Shown: positions 2 to 55,356 of the stretch, piece after piece
How the letters are laid out: each line of letters opens with the position of its first letter
Numbering within the stretch: the first letter of the stretch is position 1
Assembly (NCBI GenBank): GCA_943788115.1
Contig: CALSPA010000003.1
Span: forward strand, 1 to 64,000
Origin: an uncultured Flavobacteriales bacterium
GTDB taxonomy: Bacteria > Bacteroidota > Bacteroidia > Flavobacteriales_D > Parvicellaceae
Direction: 5' to 3'
Length of the DNA: 64,000 nucleotides
Program-made: the position numbers and the translations under genes
Notes under the pieces: model-generated
What the model was told of the DNA's origin: nothing
What the model saw: the letters and a program-made list of their open reading frames with translations, nothing else
Databases searched by the model: none

Positions 2-2329
2 ATTTCGGGCTCCGGTGGAACAGGCTCCGGTGGAACAGGCCCTTCTGCAGCACATAGTAATTTGGGGTATGTTTATTTTGAAGGCTCTACAGGTGGTTTA
101 GATACCGCTTCAATTGTTAGTCCTGCAATAGACCTTACGGCTGCTACATCAGATGCTGAATTATCTTTCTGGATGCACGCTTATGGTGCTGATATGGGAG
201 AATTAGCCGTAAGTGTAGGAACTTCTCCAACAGGCCCTTTTAATGTTGTGTTTTTACAATCTGGACCTTTACAAACTTTAGACACTGATCCATGGACTAA
301 TGTTGGTGTTAATTTAGGCGCTTATGTAGGTCAAACAATTTACCTGCAATTAACATTTTACAGATTAAATACTGGTTTCACAACTGATATGGCAATTGAT
401 TTAATTCAAGTTGAATCTTGTTTTTCTGGTGTTGCTCCTTCAAACTTAATGGCTTCAAACTTAACTACAACATCAGCTGATATTTCATGGACTGCTGGTG
501 GAAGTGAGACTTCTTGGAATGTTGTAACAGACACTGTTGGATTCAATCCTTATGCTGCAACTAATATTGTGGCAGCTAATGATTCTCTGTCAGTTTCAGG
601 ATTAACACTCAACACTTGTTATGAGTTCTATGTACAGGCTGACTGTGGTGGAGGTGATACAAGCGCATGGGTTGGTCCTTATTCATTCTGCACACTACCA
701 GCTCCTGTATGTTACTATTTACTAGACATGCAAGATTCTTATGGTGATGGTTGGAATGGTGCAAGCATTGATGTCTCTATTAACGGAATTGCATCGGGCA
801 GTTATCAGATAGATCAAATTCTTGGAGGACAATTAGATCTTCAACAAACAGACACTGTGTATGCTTACACTGGTGACGTTGTAGATTTTTCTTTTACTTC
901 AGGAGCTTGGGATACTGAAATCACTTTCCAAATATATGATCCGCTAGGAATTCAATTAGGTCAGCTATGGAACCAGTCCTGCCGTTGGGTTGTTCTTAAC
1001 TGATTCATCTTCTAATTCTATTTGTGCACCACCATTAGATGATTTAGGTGCTTTAAGTGTAACTACTGACATTAGCTCTGGTTGTGAAATTTCTTTTGCA
1101 CCTTTTAACAATGGATATTTACAATTATGGTGGTGCATCTCAAACTGGTTTTGATGTGTCTTACAGTGTAAATGGAGGCGCAAATCAAGTAACAGAAACT
1201 GTTTCTGGAACAATATTGCCCGGAGACACAATTACCTACACATTTACTCAACCTTTAGACGTAAGTGCTGATGGTTTATATTGTATAGACGTTGCAACAT
1301 TACTGGTTGGAGATTTAGATGTTACAAATGATGAAATCATAGGTTCTTATTGTGTTGAAAACTATCTCACACCTGAAGATCCAATTGGAACAAGTGATAC
1401 TATTTGCGAAGGATCTGGAGATACATTAACGCTATCTGCTACATCTAACGGAAACATAACATGGTACGATGCCGCTACTGGTGGGAATGTTGTTGGAACT
1501 GGAAATGACTTAAACAGCTTATGACAATTCAACAACTACATATTATGCTGAGGCAGTTGCAAACATTGCTGACACGCTGGCTACTACATATGATGGTGGT
1601 AACGGATGTGGATTTGGTAATATGTTTGACGTTATTGCAACTACTGACTTTACTATTGACAGTATGAGAGGTCACTTTAATGCTGCTGACTCGGTTAAAG
1701 TTTATTACAAAACAGGGTCTTATATTGGTAGTGAAGAAGTTCCTGGAGATTGGACACTTTTAGGCTCTGCTGAAATAAACTCTAGTGCAACAGCTTTTGA
1801 AGCGCTAGTATTTAGTGTCGGTCAGTTAAGCTTAACTGCTGGAGATACCGTTGGTATTTATGTTCAAGCTAGTGTAAGGTACACTAATGTAACTGCAGGA
1901 ACAACATATTCAAACTCAGATATGACCATAGCTGGTGGAACTGGTCTTTGTGCAAGTTTTGCAACAACTTTCAGTCCTAGAATGTGGAATGGTACTATAT
2001 TTTACAGCACTGGAGGTTGTTCAAGCGATCGAACTGCTGTTGATGCAGTAGTAGAAGATTGTACTAATATCCTAGAAATTGGTTTAGATGAATTTAGCTT
2101 ATTCCCGAATCCAAACAATGGAGATTTTACATTGCTTAACGCTGGAGTTGCTAATAATATAGATGTTACAATTACTGATATTCAAGGTAAAGTGGTTTAT
2201 TCAAAAAATCACAACTTCAATAAAAACGAACAAAAAACATTAACCTTAGAAGGAATTGAAAGAGGACTATACTTAGTTCATTTAAATTCTGACGATGGAT
2301 TAAAAATCATTAATATGATTGTTCAATAA
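2..2329 (+). CDS. T9SS-secreted protein (MAM/choice-of-anchor-J-like, Fn3-like, DGWNGA module, C-terminal sorting domain); 5' end outside window; apparently frameshifted three times
   Basis: ORFs 62-1003, 1084-1524 and 1622-2329 read as one protein when single-base shifts are allowed near 962, 1100 and 1520; frame is open from base 2; C-terminus 'LFPNPNNGDFTL...GLYLVHLNSDDGLKIINMIVQ' is a typical T9SS type A sorting domain. Confidence 0.75.
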
Positions 2330-2351
2330 TTAAGTTTTTTTTTAATCTTTC

Positions 2352-2383
2352 AAAGGGAGCTAATGTTTAGCTCCCTTTTTTTT
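2352..2383 (+). terminator. Rho-independent terminator
   Basis: AAAGGGAGCTAA-tgt-TTAGCTCCCTTTTTTTT stem-loop plus T-run, just after a stop codon. Confidence 0.85.
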
Positions 2384-2482
2384 GAAAACATATTAAATTA
2401 TTTATATCCTTTAAATAAAAAATTATTAATTTAGAATGTCTTTTAAAGTAAAAGGCGTAATTATTAATTAAATTTTATTTTT

Positions 2483-3124
2483 ATGAAAAAACTTTTATCT
2501 ATTTTAACAGCATTTGTTGCTGGTATTTTTAACCTTAACGCACAGTGCGATTGGACTATGGACATGCACGATGCTTGGGGCGATGGTTGGAACGGAGCAA
2601 GTGTTTCTGTTTCTCTAGCTGGTACGGCTACTAGCTACGAAGCTACTATGGGTGCTGGTGGTGGTGTTCAAACTGATGAAACTATTACATTTTCAGTAAA
2701 TGATGGTGACGCAATGGAAGTATCTTTTACAGGTGGTTCTTGGGATAGTGAAATCAGTTTTGAAATTTACAACAACTTCGGAACATTAATTTATTCCTCA
2801 GGTGTTGAGCCATTGGCTGGTGTATTATACTCTAGTACTGCAGGTTGTTCTTTCGCTACAGATGTTGCAGAAGTTAACGGAGATGATTTGACAATTTACC
2901 CTAACCCAAATAATGGAGAATTCTTCATTAGTAATAATGGTGAGGCTGAAAACATCAACCTTCATGTTCTTGACATCCAAGGAAAAGAAGTTTACAATAA
3001 CGTTCTTAACCTAGGAACTGGTGCTAATGAATTCATTAAATTGAATGACTTAAACCCAGGAATGTACATTGTTGTTTTAGACACAGAAAATGGACGCACA
3101 ACTAAAAATGTTGTTGTACAATAA
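2483..3124 (+). CDS. T9SS type A sorting domain-containing protein with a single DGWNGA module
   Basis: Signal peptide MKKLLSILTAFVAGIFNLNAQ, module 'DMHDAWGDGWNGASVSV', C-terminal 'IYPNPNNGEFFI...GMYIVVLDTENGRTTKNVVVQ'. Confidence 0.85.
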   Translation: MKKLLSILTAFVAGIFNLNAQCDWTMDMHDAWGDGWNGASVSVSLAGTATSYEATMGAGGGVQTDETITFSVNDGDAMEVSFTGGSWDSEISFEIYNNFGTLIYSSGVEPLAGVLYSSTAGCSFATDVAEVNGDDLTIYPNPNNGEFFISNNGEAENINLHVLDIQGKEVYNNVLNLGTGANEFIKLNDLNPGMYIVVLDTENGRTTKNVVVQ

Positions 3125-3149
3125 TCAATAGTTAATTATTTAACTTATT

Positions 3150-3177
3150 AAAAGGCGAGCTAATGCTCGCCTTTTTT
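3150..3177 (+). terminator. Rho-independent terminator
   Basis: AAAAGGCGAGC-taat-GCTCGCCTTTTTT. Confidence 0.85.
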
Positions 3178-3817
3178 ATTTTAAAAAAGGGTTTGAACTT
3201 TTTTCTTTACCTATCGTTGTTTCAGGACCGTGTCCGCAATAAACAATAAAACCATCATTAAGAGAAAACAATTCTTTTTTAATACTATCTAATAAAAGCT
3301 GATGATTTCCTCCCGGAAGATCCGTTCTTCCTATACTCCCATCAAAAAGGCAATCACCATTAATAATAAAATTAGAATCTTTAGAAATAAAAACCACATG
3401 TCCAGGAGCATGTCCGGGAACAAATCTAATCTCCAATTTGCTATTTCCAAATGAAATGCCTTTTTCTAAATCAAAAAAATGATTAGCTGCTGGAGGAATA
3501 TTATTAACTGGAAGACCATACATATTACATACTGTTTCAAAAGAGCTTAAGGTTTGTAAATCTTCTTTATGAATCCACAAATCAATTCCATATTTTTTTG
3601 AAACAAATGAAGATCCAAAAACATGATCTAAATGACTATGTGTATGCCAAATCATAACTGGTTTTAACTGATTTTCAGTAATGTAATTATCTAAAATATT
3701 TTCTTCGTCACTTGTAAAACAGCCAGGATCTATAATGACACATTCGTTAGAATCATCATAAACAATGTAGGTGTTCTCTGAAAATGGATTGAAGGTGAAT
3801 TTTTTTACTTTAAGCAT
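3176..3817 (-). CDS. MBL-fold metallo-hydrolase (glyoxalase II-like)
   Basis: HTHSHLDHVFG metal-binding motif, 'PGHAPGHVVF', 'GDCLFDGSIGRTDLPGG'. Confidence 0.9.
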   Translation of the reverse strand: MLKVKKFTFNPFSENTYIVYDDSNECVIIDPGCFTSDEENILDNYITENQLKPVMIWHTHSHLDHVFGSSFVSKKYGIDLWIHKEDLQTLSSFETVCNMYGLPVNNIPPAANHFFDLEKGISFGNSKLEIRFVPGHAPGHVVFISKDSNFIINGDCLFDGSIGRTDLPGGNHQLLLDSIKKELFSLNDGFIVYCGHGPETTIGKEKSSNPFLK

Positions 3818-51676: not shown

Positions 51677-51963
51677 CGTGTATGTATAATTATTTAAAGT
51701 AAATATAGTGTAAAAATTTTAATTAGTGTAAAAAGTACGCAAAGCATGCTTTAAATCAAAAAACTAACCATATACAAGTTAAAATACTAAATTCAATAAT
51801 TATATTTTGTTTAATATAAAGCATGTTTCAATTAGTTAATTTAACACTTTAGAATTTGCTTTTTTTAAGTTGATTAAAATTTTATTAATAAATATACCCC
51901 CCCTTTTTTAATTTTTAATCGTGTATGTAATTGAAAGTAACTATTTAACTTAAAAACAAAACA

Positions 51964-53022
51964 ATGAAAAAATTAATACTAGCTCTTACTGTCCTTTTTG
52001 GATTTAATACACAAGCACAAAGCCCCTGTGATGGAATCACAATAAGCGGGACTCAATTTGGAGCAACTATTGTTGTAGCTTCAACAGCTCAAGCTTTGTT
52101 CATCGAAACAACAAGCCCAAATGGAATTGTTTTAGGGCAAGATAGCCTTACAAATAGCCATTACTTTCAAACGGGAGGAAATTTCAACACAGTAGTTACA
52201 TGTATACATACAATGAATACTATGTGTTGTGAAACTTTTATATGGAACGGAACGTCATGGTTAGTTTCCGGAGGCTCTGTCCCATCTTGGAATTGTAGCT
52301 CGAACGGTGGAGGGTGTTACGATCCTGGAACAGGGAACGGACAATACTCAACATTAAGTGCGTGTCAAACAGCATGTGGAGGTTCTTCATCTTGGGATTG
52401 TGGTTCTTTTGGTTGTTTTGATCCTGGAACAGGGAATGGCCAATACTCAACTTTATCAACCTGTCAATTAGCATGTAGTTCATCATCGCTTTGTGATTCA
52501 ATAATTGTAAACGGATCATCAGGTCAAGTTTCTTTTAATGCGCCAAATGCTCTAGTTGAATATTGGGTGACTACAGATACATATGGAAACATATTGGCTG
52601 AAGATAGCCTTACAAACATTCACAGTATAAACTTCAATGGATTGCCACAAGACACGTTAATCACATGTTTGTCTTCAGGAAATTTAATGTGTTGCGAAAC
52701 TTATGTATGGAACGGTACAGTCTGGGCCAAAATAGGGGTTACATCTATTGAGAATGAGCAAATAATTAACTTCAGTTCCTTGTATCCAAATCCGGTAAAA
52801 GATGTTGCAGTTTTAGAATTTAATTCTTCAAAAAACACAAACATAAGCATTGCTATTTATGACATTTTCGGAAGACAATTAAGCACCTCATCAATACGAA
52901 TTAGTATTGGTAATAATAAAATCAATTTAGAAACTTCTAAGCTGGCAAATGGGTATTATTTGGTAAATGCTAGTTGTGATGAAGGAGAATTCAAAAAAAC
53001 AATTCAATTTACTAAGCAATAA
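51964..53022 (+). CDS. T9SS type A sorting domain protein with duplicated Cys-rich modules
   Basis: Signal peptide MKKLILALTVLFGFNTQAQ; two CxDPGTGNGQYSTLSxCQxxC repeats; C-terminal 'LYPNPVKDVAVLEF...GYYLVNASCDEGEFKKTIQFTKQ'. Confidence 0.85.
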   Translation: MKKLILALTVLFGFNTQAQSPCDGITISGTQFGATIVVASTAQALFIETTSPNGIVLGQDSLTNSHYFQTGGNFNTVVTCIHTMNTMCCETFIWNGTSWLVSGGSVPSWNCSSNGGGCYDPGTGNGQYSTLSACQTACGGSSSWDCGSFGCFDPGTGNGQYSTLSTCQLACSSSSLCDSIIVNGSSGQVSFNAPNALVEYWVTTDTYGNILAEDSLTNIHSINFNGLPQDTLITCLSSGNLMCCETYVWNGTVWAKIGVTSIENEQIINFSSLYPNPVKDVAVLEFNSSKNTNISIAIYDIFGRQLSTSSIRISIGNNKINLETSKLANGYYLVNASCDEGEFKKTIQFTKQ

Positions 53023-53064: not shown

Positions 53065-53085
53065 AACCGGGCTCAGCTCGGTTTT
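53065..53085 (+). terminator. Rho-independent terminator
   Basis: ACCGGGC-TCA-GCTCGGTTTT stem-loop with T-run. Confidence 0.6.
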
Positions 53086-53099
53086 AGTGTTAACACTCA

Positions 53100-53651
53100 A
53101 TGAAAGTAAGTACGCAACTTATAGAACGTGTAATTAACAAAGAGCGCAAAGCACAATTGGAACTATATCGAATTTGTTTTAGCACATTAATGAGTGTTGC
53201 ATTTAGATATAAAAAAAACGAAGCAGATGCAGCAGCATTATCAAATGATGCATTTTTGAAAATACTATTGAATATTAGTAAATATAATACTGAAACCCCA
53301 ATTAATGCATGGGTAAGAAGAATCGCAATTAATAATGCAATTGATGATTATAGAAAAAACAAAAAAAGAGAGAAAACAATAGAAACAGTAGATAATTTCG
53401 ATAACATAGAGGAAGCTGATTATTTTGAATTAAATAATGAAATAGAATATCAAGAGCTAAATAAAATGCTACTTAGCCTTCCTAATGCAACCAGGGTGGT
53501 GTTTAATTTATTTGCGATAGATGGTTACTCACACAAAGAGATCACAGAAGAATTAAATATAAAATTAGAAACATCGAAATGGCACATGAAAGAAGCTAGA
53601 AAAAGATTAAAAGCTTTATTAATTAAAAGAACATCAGTTAATGAAATCTGA
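53100..53651 (+). CDS. ECF RNA polymerase sigma factor (sigma-70 family)
   Basis: Region 2-like 'SNDAFLKILLNISKYNTETPINAWVRRIAINNAIDDYRK' and region 4-like 'LPNATRVVFNLFAIDGYSHKEITEELNIKLETSKWHMKEARKRLKALL'. Confidence 0.93.
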   Translation: MKVSTQLIERVINKERKAQLELYRICFSTLMSVAFRYKKNEADAAALSNDAFLKILLNISKYNTETPINAWVRRIAINNAIDDYRKNKKREKTIETVDNFDNIEEADYFELNNEIEYQELNKMLLSLPNATRVVFNLFAIDGYSHKEITEELNIKLETSKWHMKEARKRLKALLIKRTSVNEI

Positions 53652-55356
53652 TAACAACATAGATAAGTTATTTAAAGACAAATTATTTGAAAAAGAATTT
53701 GTCTTAAAGGATAGCTACATTGCTGATCTTGAAGAGAAACTTGATGTGGAAAAGTCTAATAAAAAATTATTCCTATTAATTCTGTTCTTTTTTATTGGGG
53801 GAATTTCGTTGACTTATTATCTAACAACTAACGACACAAAAACAATTGTAAAAGTTGAAGAAACAAATTACAGCTTGGAAAATGAAGGCACTGAAAACAA
53901 AATCCTAACAATTCAAAAAGCAGACACTTCGGCAAATTTAAAAAACCCTTTAGCATTAGAGGATTCTAATGAATTTAAAGTAAAAAGAACTAAAAGTCTC
54001 AACGACAAAAATGATACAGATTCAACTTCAATAGAAATTAAAAACATAAAAGACAATTCATTTAATAAAAATTTAAAGGCTGTTTCTTCTAAATCTTTGT
54101 TAGATATAAATCCTAATAACAAACAAGATAATTCAACACCAAAATCAGCTGACTTTAAAAACAAAAAGATTACTGACAAAAAAAATCCAACTAGTATCTC
54201 ATCAACAAATAACACATTTCCCTATGAAACAATTGCAATAGATTCTATAAAATTAAACCCCACTAATACCAATTTTAAAACGAATGAAACTCAATATTTG
54301 GACAGCATTTTAAATGCTAAAGATGAAACAGTTTTGCTTGTTCAAAACATCGAAAACAAGCCCACTGAAAATGCCCTAAACACCTTAACAAATATTTCTA
54401 GTCCTGAAACTCCTTCTTTAAAGCAAAATGAAGACAGTCTGATTTCCATTAAAAGCGAAAATAAACTCATAAAAAGTGACACTTCCTCGCTGAATATTGT
54501 TCCTGAAATTGACACTTCTATAACACTGCAAAATGAAGAAAGTTTATTGCCTAAAAACGATAATCTTGAAGTTCCTGATTCAACTTTCAGCAATGATAAC
54601 TTAACTAAAATTGATGAAACAAATTCTACTGATGAAACAAAAGCTAAAAAATGGTCTTTATCATTTTTTTGGGGGCCAGCATCAATAAACAAAGAAATAT
54701 CTGGCAATATATCTACTGATTATTTAGCTGTTAGAAAGGCTGAAGAAACTTTCATTTTAACACCTTCTTTTGGTGCAAGGGTTAATTACAATGTAAATAA
54801 GAACATTAATCTTTCATTAGGCCTAAATACGCTTAATTTAGGAGAAAATGTTGATTATTCTACCCGTTATAATATTTCTTCAATAGACACAACTTATTAC
54901 TATTCATACATAGATTCTGTAATAAATAATAATGGCGTATGGGACACTGTAACGGTTCAATTTTCGGTGGATTCCATTCTTGGATATGACACAACAGCTT
55001 TTAATTACATTGGCAACAACAGACACTCTTATATTCAAATTCCTTTTATGCTTGGCTATAAATTCATTTTTAATAAAATAGGTTTAAATGTACGGCTAGG
55101 TGGGTCTTATGGAATACTAGTCAATAGCCAGAACAAGTATGTATCTGTAGCATTAGACAACATTCAACAGGAGACTATGAGAAAGTCAATTATTAACATA
55201 GCAGCTTCGACAACAATTAGCTACCAACTAAAAAAATTCAATGTGTTTGTAGAACCCAATTACAGACTCAATATAAGCAACTCATTTAACAATAAAGCTG
55301 TCATTCAGAAATACACCGCTTTTGGTGTTAATATTGGATTGTCATTTGATTTATAA
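53641..55356 (+). CDS. putative trans-envelope anti-sigma factor: cytoplasmic N-terminus, one TM helix, long disordered linker, C-terminal OM beta-barrel
   Basis: TM 'LFLLILFFFIGGISLTYYL' about aa 44-62; low-complexity S/T/N/K/D/E linker to about aa 337; barrel 'WSLSFFWGPASINKEISG...AFGVNIGLSFDL'; overlaps sigma gene by 11 bp. Confidence 0.72.
   Translation: MKSDNNIDKLFKDKLFEKEFVLKDSYIADLEEKLDVEKSNKKLFLLILFFFIGGISLTYYLTTNDTKTIVKVEETNYSLENEGTENKILTIQKADTSANLKNPLALEDSNEFKVKRTKSLNDKNDTDSTSIEIKNIKDNSFNKNLKAVSSKSLLDINPNNKQDNSTPKSADFKNKKITDKKNPTSISSTNNTFPYETIAIDSIKLNPTNTNFKTNETQYLDSILNAKDETVLLVQNIENKPTENALNTLTNISSPETPSLKQNEDSLISIKSENKLIKSDTSSLNIVPEIDTSITLQNEESLLPKNDNLEVPDSTFSNDNLTKIDETNSTDETKAKKWSLSFFWGPASINKEISGNISTDYLAVRKAEETFILTPSFGARVNYNVNKNINLSLGLNTLNLGENVDYSTRYNISSIDTTYYYSYIDSVINNNGVWDTVTVQFSVDSILGYDTTAFNYIGNNRHSYIQIPFMLGYKFIFNKIGLNVRLGGSYGILVNSQNKYVSVALDNIQQETMRKSIINIAASTTISYQLKKFNVFVEPNYRLNISNSFNNKAVIQKYTAFGVNIGLSFDL

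Follow-up and report, generated by a model that had tools for sequence, protein, structure and literature searches.

The window, a stretch of 64,000 nucleotides from an uncultured Flavobacteriales bacterium, carries at 53100–53651 on the forward (+) strand a gene for a 183-residue ECF sigma factor, whose stop codon (TGA, 53649–53651) lies within an 11-bp overlap with a 571-residue open reading frame (ORF) at 53641–55356 (+). The coordinates and the overlap that an earlier note had given for this pair are exact, and its assignment of the first gene to the ECF group is borne out by Pfam (Sigma70_r2, 2.3e-10; Sigma70_r4_2, 4e-10), by NCBIfam (TIGR02937, 1.4e-21), by the relatives of the protein and by matches to ECF factors in the PDB; it contains sigma2 and sigma4 domains without sigma3, the composition that defines an ECF factor. 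None of the Pfam or NCBIfam models matched the 571-residue ORF, which we assign as a Dma-type anti-sigma factor from the ORF itself, its homologues and AlphaFold2 modelling. The operon seems to begin one gene earlier. The proposed first gene (51964–53022, +), separated from the sigma gene by 77 bp, encodes a secreted protein of 352 residues with a signal peptide and a T9SS type-A sorting domain (Por_Secre_tail, 7e-13), and 37 nt separate its ATG from the CGTGTAT of a candidate ECF-type promoter, CCCCCCC (−35), N16, CGTGTAT (−10), located at 51897–51926 (+) by its conservation and rarity. Between the cargo and sigma genes, the sequence and folding energy indicate a candidate terminator or attenuator, the hairpin AACCGGGC-TCA-GCTCGGTT with a short T tract (53065–53085, +). 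A perfect 12-bp palindrome, AGTGTTAACACT (53086–53097), stands just ahead of the sigma start; it occurs once in the window and was not seen upstream in 15 related loci. Five further ORFs of the window have type-A-like tails (near 1513, 2467, 10941 and 12869 on the + strand and one on the minus strand), which makes the window a region with many T9SS cargo genes.

The full 571-residue ORF was folded with AlphaFold2 using an alignment of 60 family sequences. The model consists of two short N-terminal helices, helix 1 (residues 7–16; 53659–53688, +) and helix 2 (residues 24–39; 53710–53757, +), both also marked by the residue couplings described below; a predicted inner-membrane transmembrane (TM) helix (residues 41–63; 53761–53829, +), recognizable as a hydrophobic segment in 285 of 295 homologues; a disordered, presumably periplasmic linker of 274 residues (residues 64–337; 53830–54651, +), with pLDDT mostly below 50 and a composition of 66% S/T/N/K/D/E; and a ten-stranded outer-membrane β-barrel (residues 338–570; 54652–55350, +). 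Modelled by itself, the barrel domain retains ten strands with a mean pLDDT of 88.8, and its best Foldseek matches among solved structures are small OmpA/OpcA/OmpT-like outer-membrane barrels (down to 2e-6). Many homologues match the OMP_b-brl_2 or OMP_b-brl families, and the C-terminus reads ...GLSFDL. The model thus reproduces closely what had been read from the letters, namely about 43 cytoplasmic residues before a single TM helix, an S/T/N/K/D/E linker of about 275 residues and a C-terminal barrel ending in F-D-L.

The residues that flank the TM helix bear on the orientation of the chain. Lys and Arg average 3.7 before the helix and 1.1 after it, and a cleavage-like AQ motif follows it in just 28 of 295 homologues, a frequency judged to be about that of chance, compared with 12 of 20 signal peptides of T9SS cargo proteins from the same loci. 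As the positive residues are concentrated before the helix and the motif is not enriched in the family, these counts support an N-in orientation with an uncleaved TM segment, and they speak against the cleaved signal peptide that the earlier note had named as its refutation. A single chain appears to connect cytoplasm and outer membrane and would span both membranes. Published Dma proteins are described as having an N-terminal anti-sigma domain, a TM helix, a disordered tether and a C-terminal barrel, with an ECF gene adjacent (PMC13088901); all four parts and the ECF neighbour were found computationally for the 571-residue ORF. Dma proteins are further characterized by spanning both membranes in the cell and by controlling vesiculation.

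Direct couplings (DCA) were computed on 278 non-redundant pairs of sigma factor and N-terminal domain (N-domain). The top inter-protein coupling is 2.49, compared with 0.87–1.32 when partners were permuted and at most 2.01 when the permutation preserved clades. The ten strongest couplings divide evenly between two interfaces: five connect the helix 1 region with sigma4 (D8–R167, F11–L120, K18–N121, F11–L170 and L15–Y117) and five the helix 2 region with sigma2 (Y26–F27, K23–A45, L34–L56, L22–L20 and I27–V11). This division fades past rank 15, as expected if the weaker couplings are noise. The couplings support a true contact between the Dma-type N-terminus and its paired sigma factor, as the earlier note had supposed, and coevolution resolves the predicted interface to residues. 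On its predicted architecture and coevolved interface the protein is of the Dma type, the comparison with published Dma proteins being one of descriptions. The arrangement has a structural precedent in the class II anti-sigma factor CnrY, which binds CnrH through two helices, its first helix contacting sigma4 and its second sigma2, and class I domains show the same arrangement with more helices (PMC7406223). The present N-domain resembles CnrY in having two helices only and in the sigma domain to which each of them is coupled. With the N-domain as query, CnrY chains were absent from the PDB profile matches up to E = 10, and the profile search for PDB relatives returned only chance-level or TM-type matches; given that no sequence relatedness was detected, we describe the domain as working in a CnrY-like manner and do not class it as a member of the CnrY group. 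To our knowledge, CnrY has no barrel, unlike the Dma-type ORF.

The pairing extends far beyond this locus. The 80 best sigma relatives come mostly from metagenome-assembled genomes of Flavobacteriales, Saprospiraceae, Chitinophaga, Sphingobacteriaceae and Cytophagales, and in nearly all of them a comparable ORF begins at or overlaps the sigma stop codon. A profile built from an alignment of the ORF N-terminus (A1) finds matches, 1–9 per genome, in 221 of the order's 294 genomes; for the class, 223 of 290 have one. Where the surrounding DNA was examined, an ECF gene lies directly upstream of 320 of 321 N-domain ORFs, 239 of which were found via the N-domain, independently of sigma. Since nearly all of the 80 relatives have such an ORF at the corresponding position and 320 of 321 follow an ECF gene, the pairing is not due to chance; judged by this recurrence, the predicted sigma/Dma pair is real and old. 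The placement of such a system in a Flavobacteriales genome therefore stands, but its novelty does not: the N-domain is common in the order and the class, so that its presence here is to be expected, and the 221 genomes of the order rule out treating it as a surprise. Dma proteins and ECF21 factors have been found solely in Bacteroidota (PMC13088901). Dma genes lie beside genes for sigma factors of the ECF21 group, and the neighbour of the window ORF is identified as an ECF factor.

What follows the N-domain varies. Among 302 family members, 182 score as having a barrel, 68 as having a T9SS type-B sorting domain and 22 as short, with 30 unassigned or cut. The type-B domain thus replaces the barrel in about one-fifth of the relatives, including the second N-domain protein of the window genome (G000, contig 5, near 101,600; E = 8.2e-6). 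This protein (locus L164, G000:C5:98600-103400; ORF 1927–3213, minus strand) has an N-domain and a TM segment, then a linker that leads to a pair of PKD domains, and a type-B sorting domain at its C-terminus (PF13585, 1.1e-15; TIGR04131, 3.5e-9); it and 67 further members combine an anti-sigma N-domain, TM, PKD and T9SS type-B domain. Such a protein is possibly an anti-sigma factor that reaches from the cytoplasm to the surface, threading through or reporting on the T9SS; a limited literature search found no paper on an anti-sigma factor with a type-B ending. The short members are barrel-less anti-sigma factors of about 250 residues (L156, L158 and L161, also L147–L163), and in L156, L158 and L161 the short gene is followed by a separate barrel-like outer-membrane protein gene with its own signal peptide. 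The occurrence of both fused and split forms indicates a working link between anti-sigma factor and barrel. Seven loci (L008, L009, L010, L011, L025, L087 and L109) have two tandem N-domains per protein with a single sigma gene ahead. The Dma ORF ends prematurely in L003, L006, L007 and L009, with close relatives at full length, which may reflect an assembly error or an on/off frameshift. Taken across these forms, the two-helix module joined to a barrel or to a T9SS type-B/PKD ending may define a family of cytoplasm-to-surface anti-sigma factors that monitor both the outer membrane and the T9SS and control the expression of T9SS cargo genes, with both kinds present in the window genome; we put this forward tentatively, with somewhat less than even confidence.

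Of 294 related loci, 62 have a T9SS cargo gene as the immediate upstream neighbour of sigma. In the L002–L081 set, such genes account for 26 of 58 same-strand upstream ORFs compared with 4 of 335 other ORFs, an association that is overstated because the statistics ignore relatedness; the T9SS profile used had been trained on 12 of the positives. Nine cargo proteins were checked with Pfam and all nine contain PKD, which the window cargo lacks. The 75 nt before the sigma gene, which include the hairpin, fold with an MFE of −21.2 (z = −5.0), and a strong hairpin in the gap (z < −2.5) is present in 69% of cargo loci compared with 5–10% otherwise. General scans for sigma-70-type promoters and terminators scored close to background and missed the operon's own features.

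Cargo genes of the window clade have in common an upstream C-run with CGTNTA behind it at −10-like spacing; the motif is found at 12 related clade loci as well as in the window, where shuffling predicts 0.04 matches. Outside this clade, many cargo genes carry ACCCAACC-N-CGTGTA. Of 232 loci without cargo, 92 have CCAAC-N14-18-CGT ahead of sigma, compared with about 2.7 for shuffled sequences and 2 for reversed sequence. In many such loci, for example L046, L053, L064, L094, L106 and L248, the CCAAC-N-CGT motif is seen 50–170 nt upstream of sigma. CCAAC-N-CGT appears to be a general promoter of the family and is probably autoregulatory. The −35 type agrees with residues 157 and 164 of the sigma4.2 recognition helix in nearly every locus: C-run loci have E157 (18/19) and K164 (19/19), and CCAAC loci have G157 (112/115) with mostly Ser or Asn at position 164. 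On a sigma tree built leaving out the recognition helix, the joint switch of −35 and helix is a single change, which rules out repeated independent covariation; the match is for that reason consistent with recognition and does not amount to independent proof of it. The CGT −10 box is known from ECF promoters of Flavobacterium psychrophilum, one of which drives an ECF/anti-sigma operon and others T9SS genes (PMC9723704).

In the 2.68-Mb window genome, the strict C-run pattern matches the cargo site and one weak site elsewhere, and a second convincing target was not found there. A large C-run regulon was considered and rejected for this genome, with one convincing site and a looser pattern that equalled its reversed control; as the genome is about 90% complete, the regulon may exceed one site. 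When eight related genomes were scanned with the strict pattern, it recovered the cargo promoter together with a small number of additional sites. Among the sites inspected, those that resemble the cargo promoter precede genes for exported proteins by 35–136 nt, and these proteins include one with PKD repeats, one with a T9SS tail and a lipoprotein; others have no plausible gene beside them. For the regulon, which the earlier note had left open, the upstream cargo gene and its promoter now provide a candidate target.

We consider it likely that the locus encodes an autoregulated trans-envelope switch of the Dma type, in which an ECF sigma/anti-sigma pair drives T9SS surface proteins. The gene pairing, domain layout, two-sided coevolved interface, conserved promoter and recognition-helix match were computed; we infer how the chain is placed in the cell, that the operon is autoregulated with read-through, and both the cue and the release step. 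In the off state, the barrel would sit in the outer membrane with the disordered linker crossing the periplasm, and the two N-terminal helices would clamp the sigma factor, helix 1 holding sigma4 and helix 2 holding sigma2, and keep it from using RNA polymerase. In the on state, a cue at the outer membrane would act on the barrel and free the sigma factor, which would recognize CCCCCCC-N16-CGTGTAT and transcribe the cargo gene; by read-through past the hairpin, sigma and dma would be transcribed as well, which would complete a feedback loop.

The cue and the release step are the weakest links of this model, and it is only in these that the best-surviving alternative departs from it. The protein might act as an inner-membrane anti-sigma factor whose barrel domain reports on BAM assembly capacity, failed assembly leading to proteolysis and sigma release. 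A tethered barrel would be a natural assembly reporter, and the existence of short members lacking a barrel shows that the anti-sigma portion does not require one; published work on Dma proteins nevertheless proposes domains that span from the outer membrane to the cytosol (PMC13088901), and we regard the alternative as rather unlikely. Less likely again is that the sigma factor does not act at the C-run motif, which would instead serve a different regulator of T9SS cargo genes, and that sigma and dma use their own, unrecognized promoter. The hairpin with its T tract could mean separate cargo and sigma transcripts, the latter from an unseen promoter, and the −35 type switches only once on the tree. 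Against this, an equivalent −35/−10 motif lies upstream of sigma itself where cargo is absent, the recognition-helix residues change along with the −35, and the CGT −10 is typical of ECF promoters and marks the F. psychrophilum ECF/anti-sigma operon (PMC9723704); in L002 and L003, moreover, the sigma start codon immediately follows the T tract of the hairpin, which leaves no room for a promoter between. The least probable alternative, which we consider improbable, makes the TM segment a cleaved signal and the protein an outer-membrane barrel of the ordinary kind, its first 43 residues being a leader or a separately released small anti-sigma peptide: barrel proteins normally have a cleavable signal and a weak G-x-S lies within the hydrophobic stretch, but more than 40 conserved residues ahead of the TM segment coevolve with sigma, AQ is far scarcer after it than at the cargo signal peptides, and in the three split loci the barrel-like protein comes from a gene of its own and has its own signal peptide.

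The promoter and T9SS link turn the regulon question into a directly testable one and suggest a way in which such bacteria could adjust surface-protein output to outer-membrane conditions. Class I anti-sigma factors are encoded nearby for only 6% of Bacteroidetes ECFs (PMC7406223), and the two-helix Dma-type domain would fill part of this gap in missing anti-sigma factors among Bacteroidota. The Dma-type sensor itself is known, if little studied; new here are the T9SS cargo gene, the hairpin and the C-run promoter. The closest counterparts, Dma1–Das1 and Dma2–Das2 of Bacteroides thetaiotaomicron, have the same four-part architecture and an adjacent ECF gene, and das2 is strongly induced in a dma2 mutant (PMC13088901); for the window locus, likewise, autoregulation is proposed from the promoter. 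The window locus differs in the T9SS cargo gene ahead of sigma and dma and in its candidate targets, which are T9SS or surface proteins rather than nigD or PULs. The SM6 ECF promoters of F. psychrophilum have the same CGT −10 box and their regulon also includes an ECF/anti-sigma operon and T9SS genes (PMC9723704), but the SM6 targets include genes of the T9SS machinery, unlike those proposed here. PorXY–SigP and PorA of Porphyromonas gingivalis likewise tie an ECF sigma factor to the T9SS, with a CTD protein relaying a surface signal; that system works via a two-component system (PMC7712824), whereas the one described here would work via a trans-envelope anti-sigma factor.
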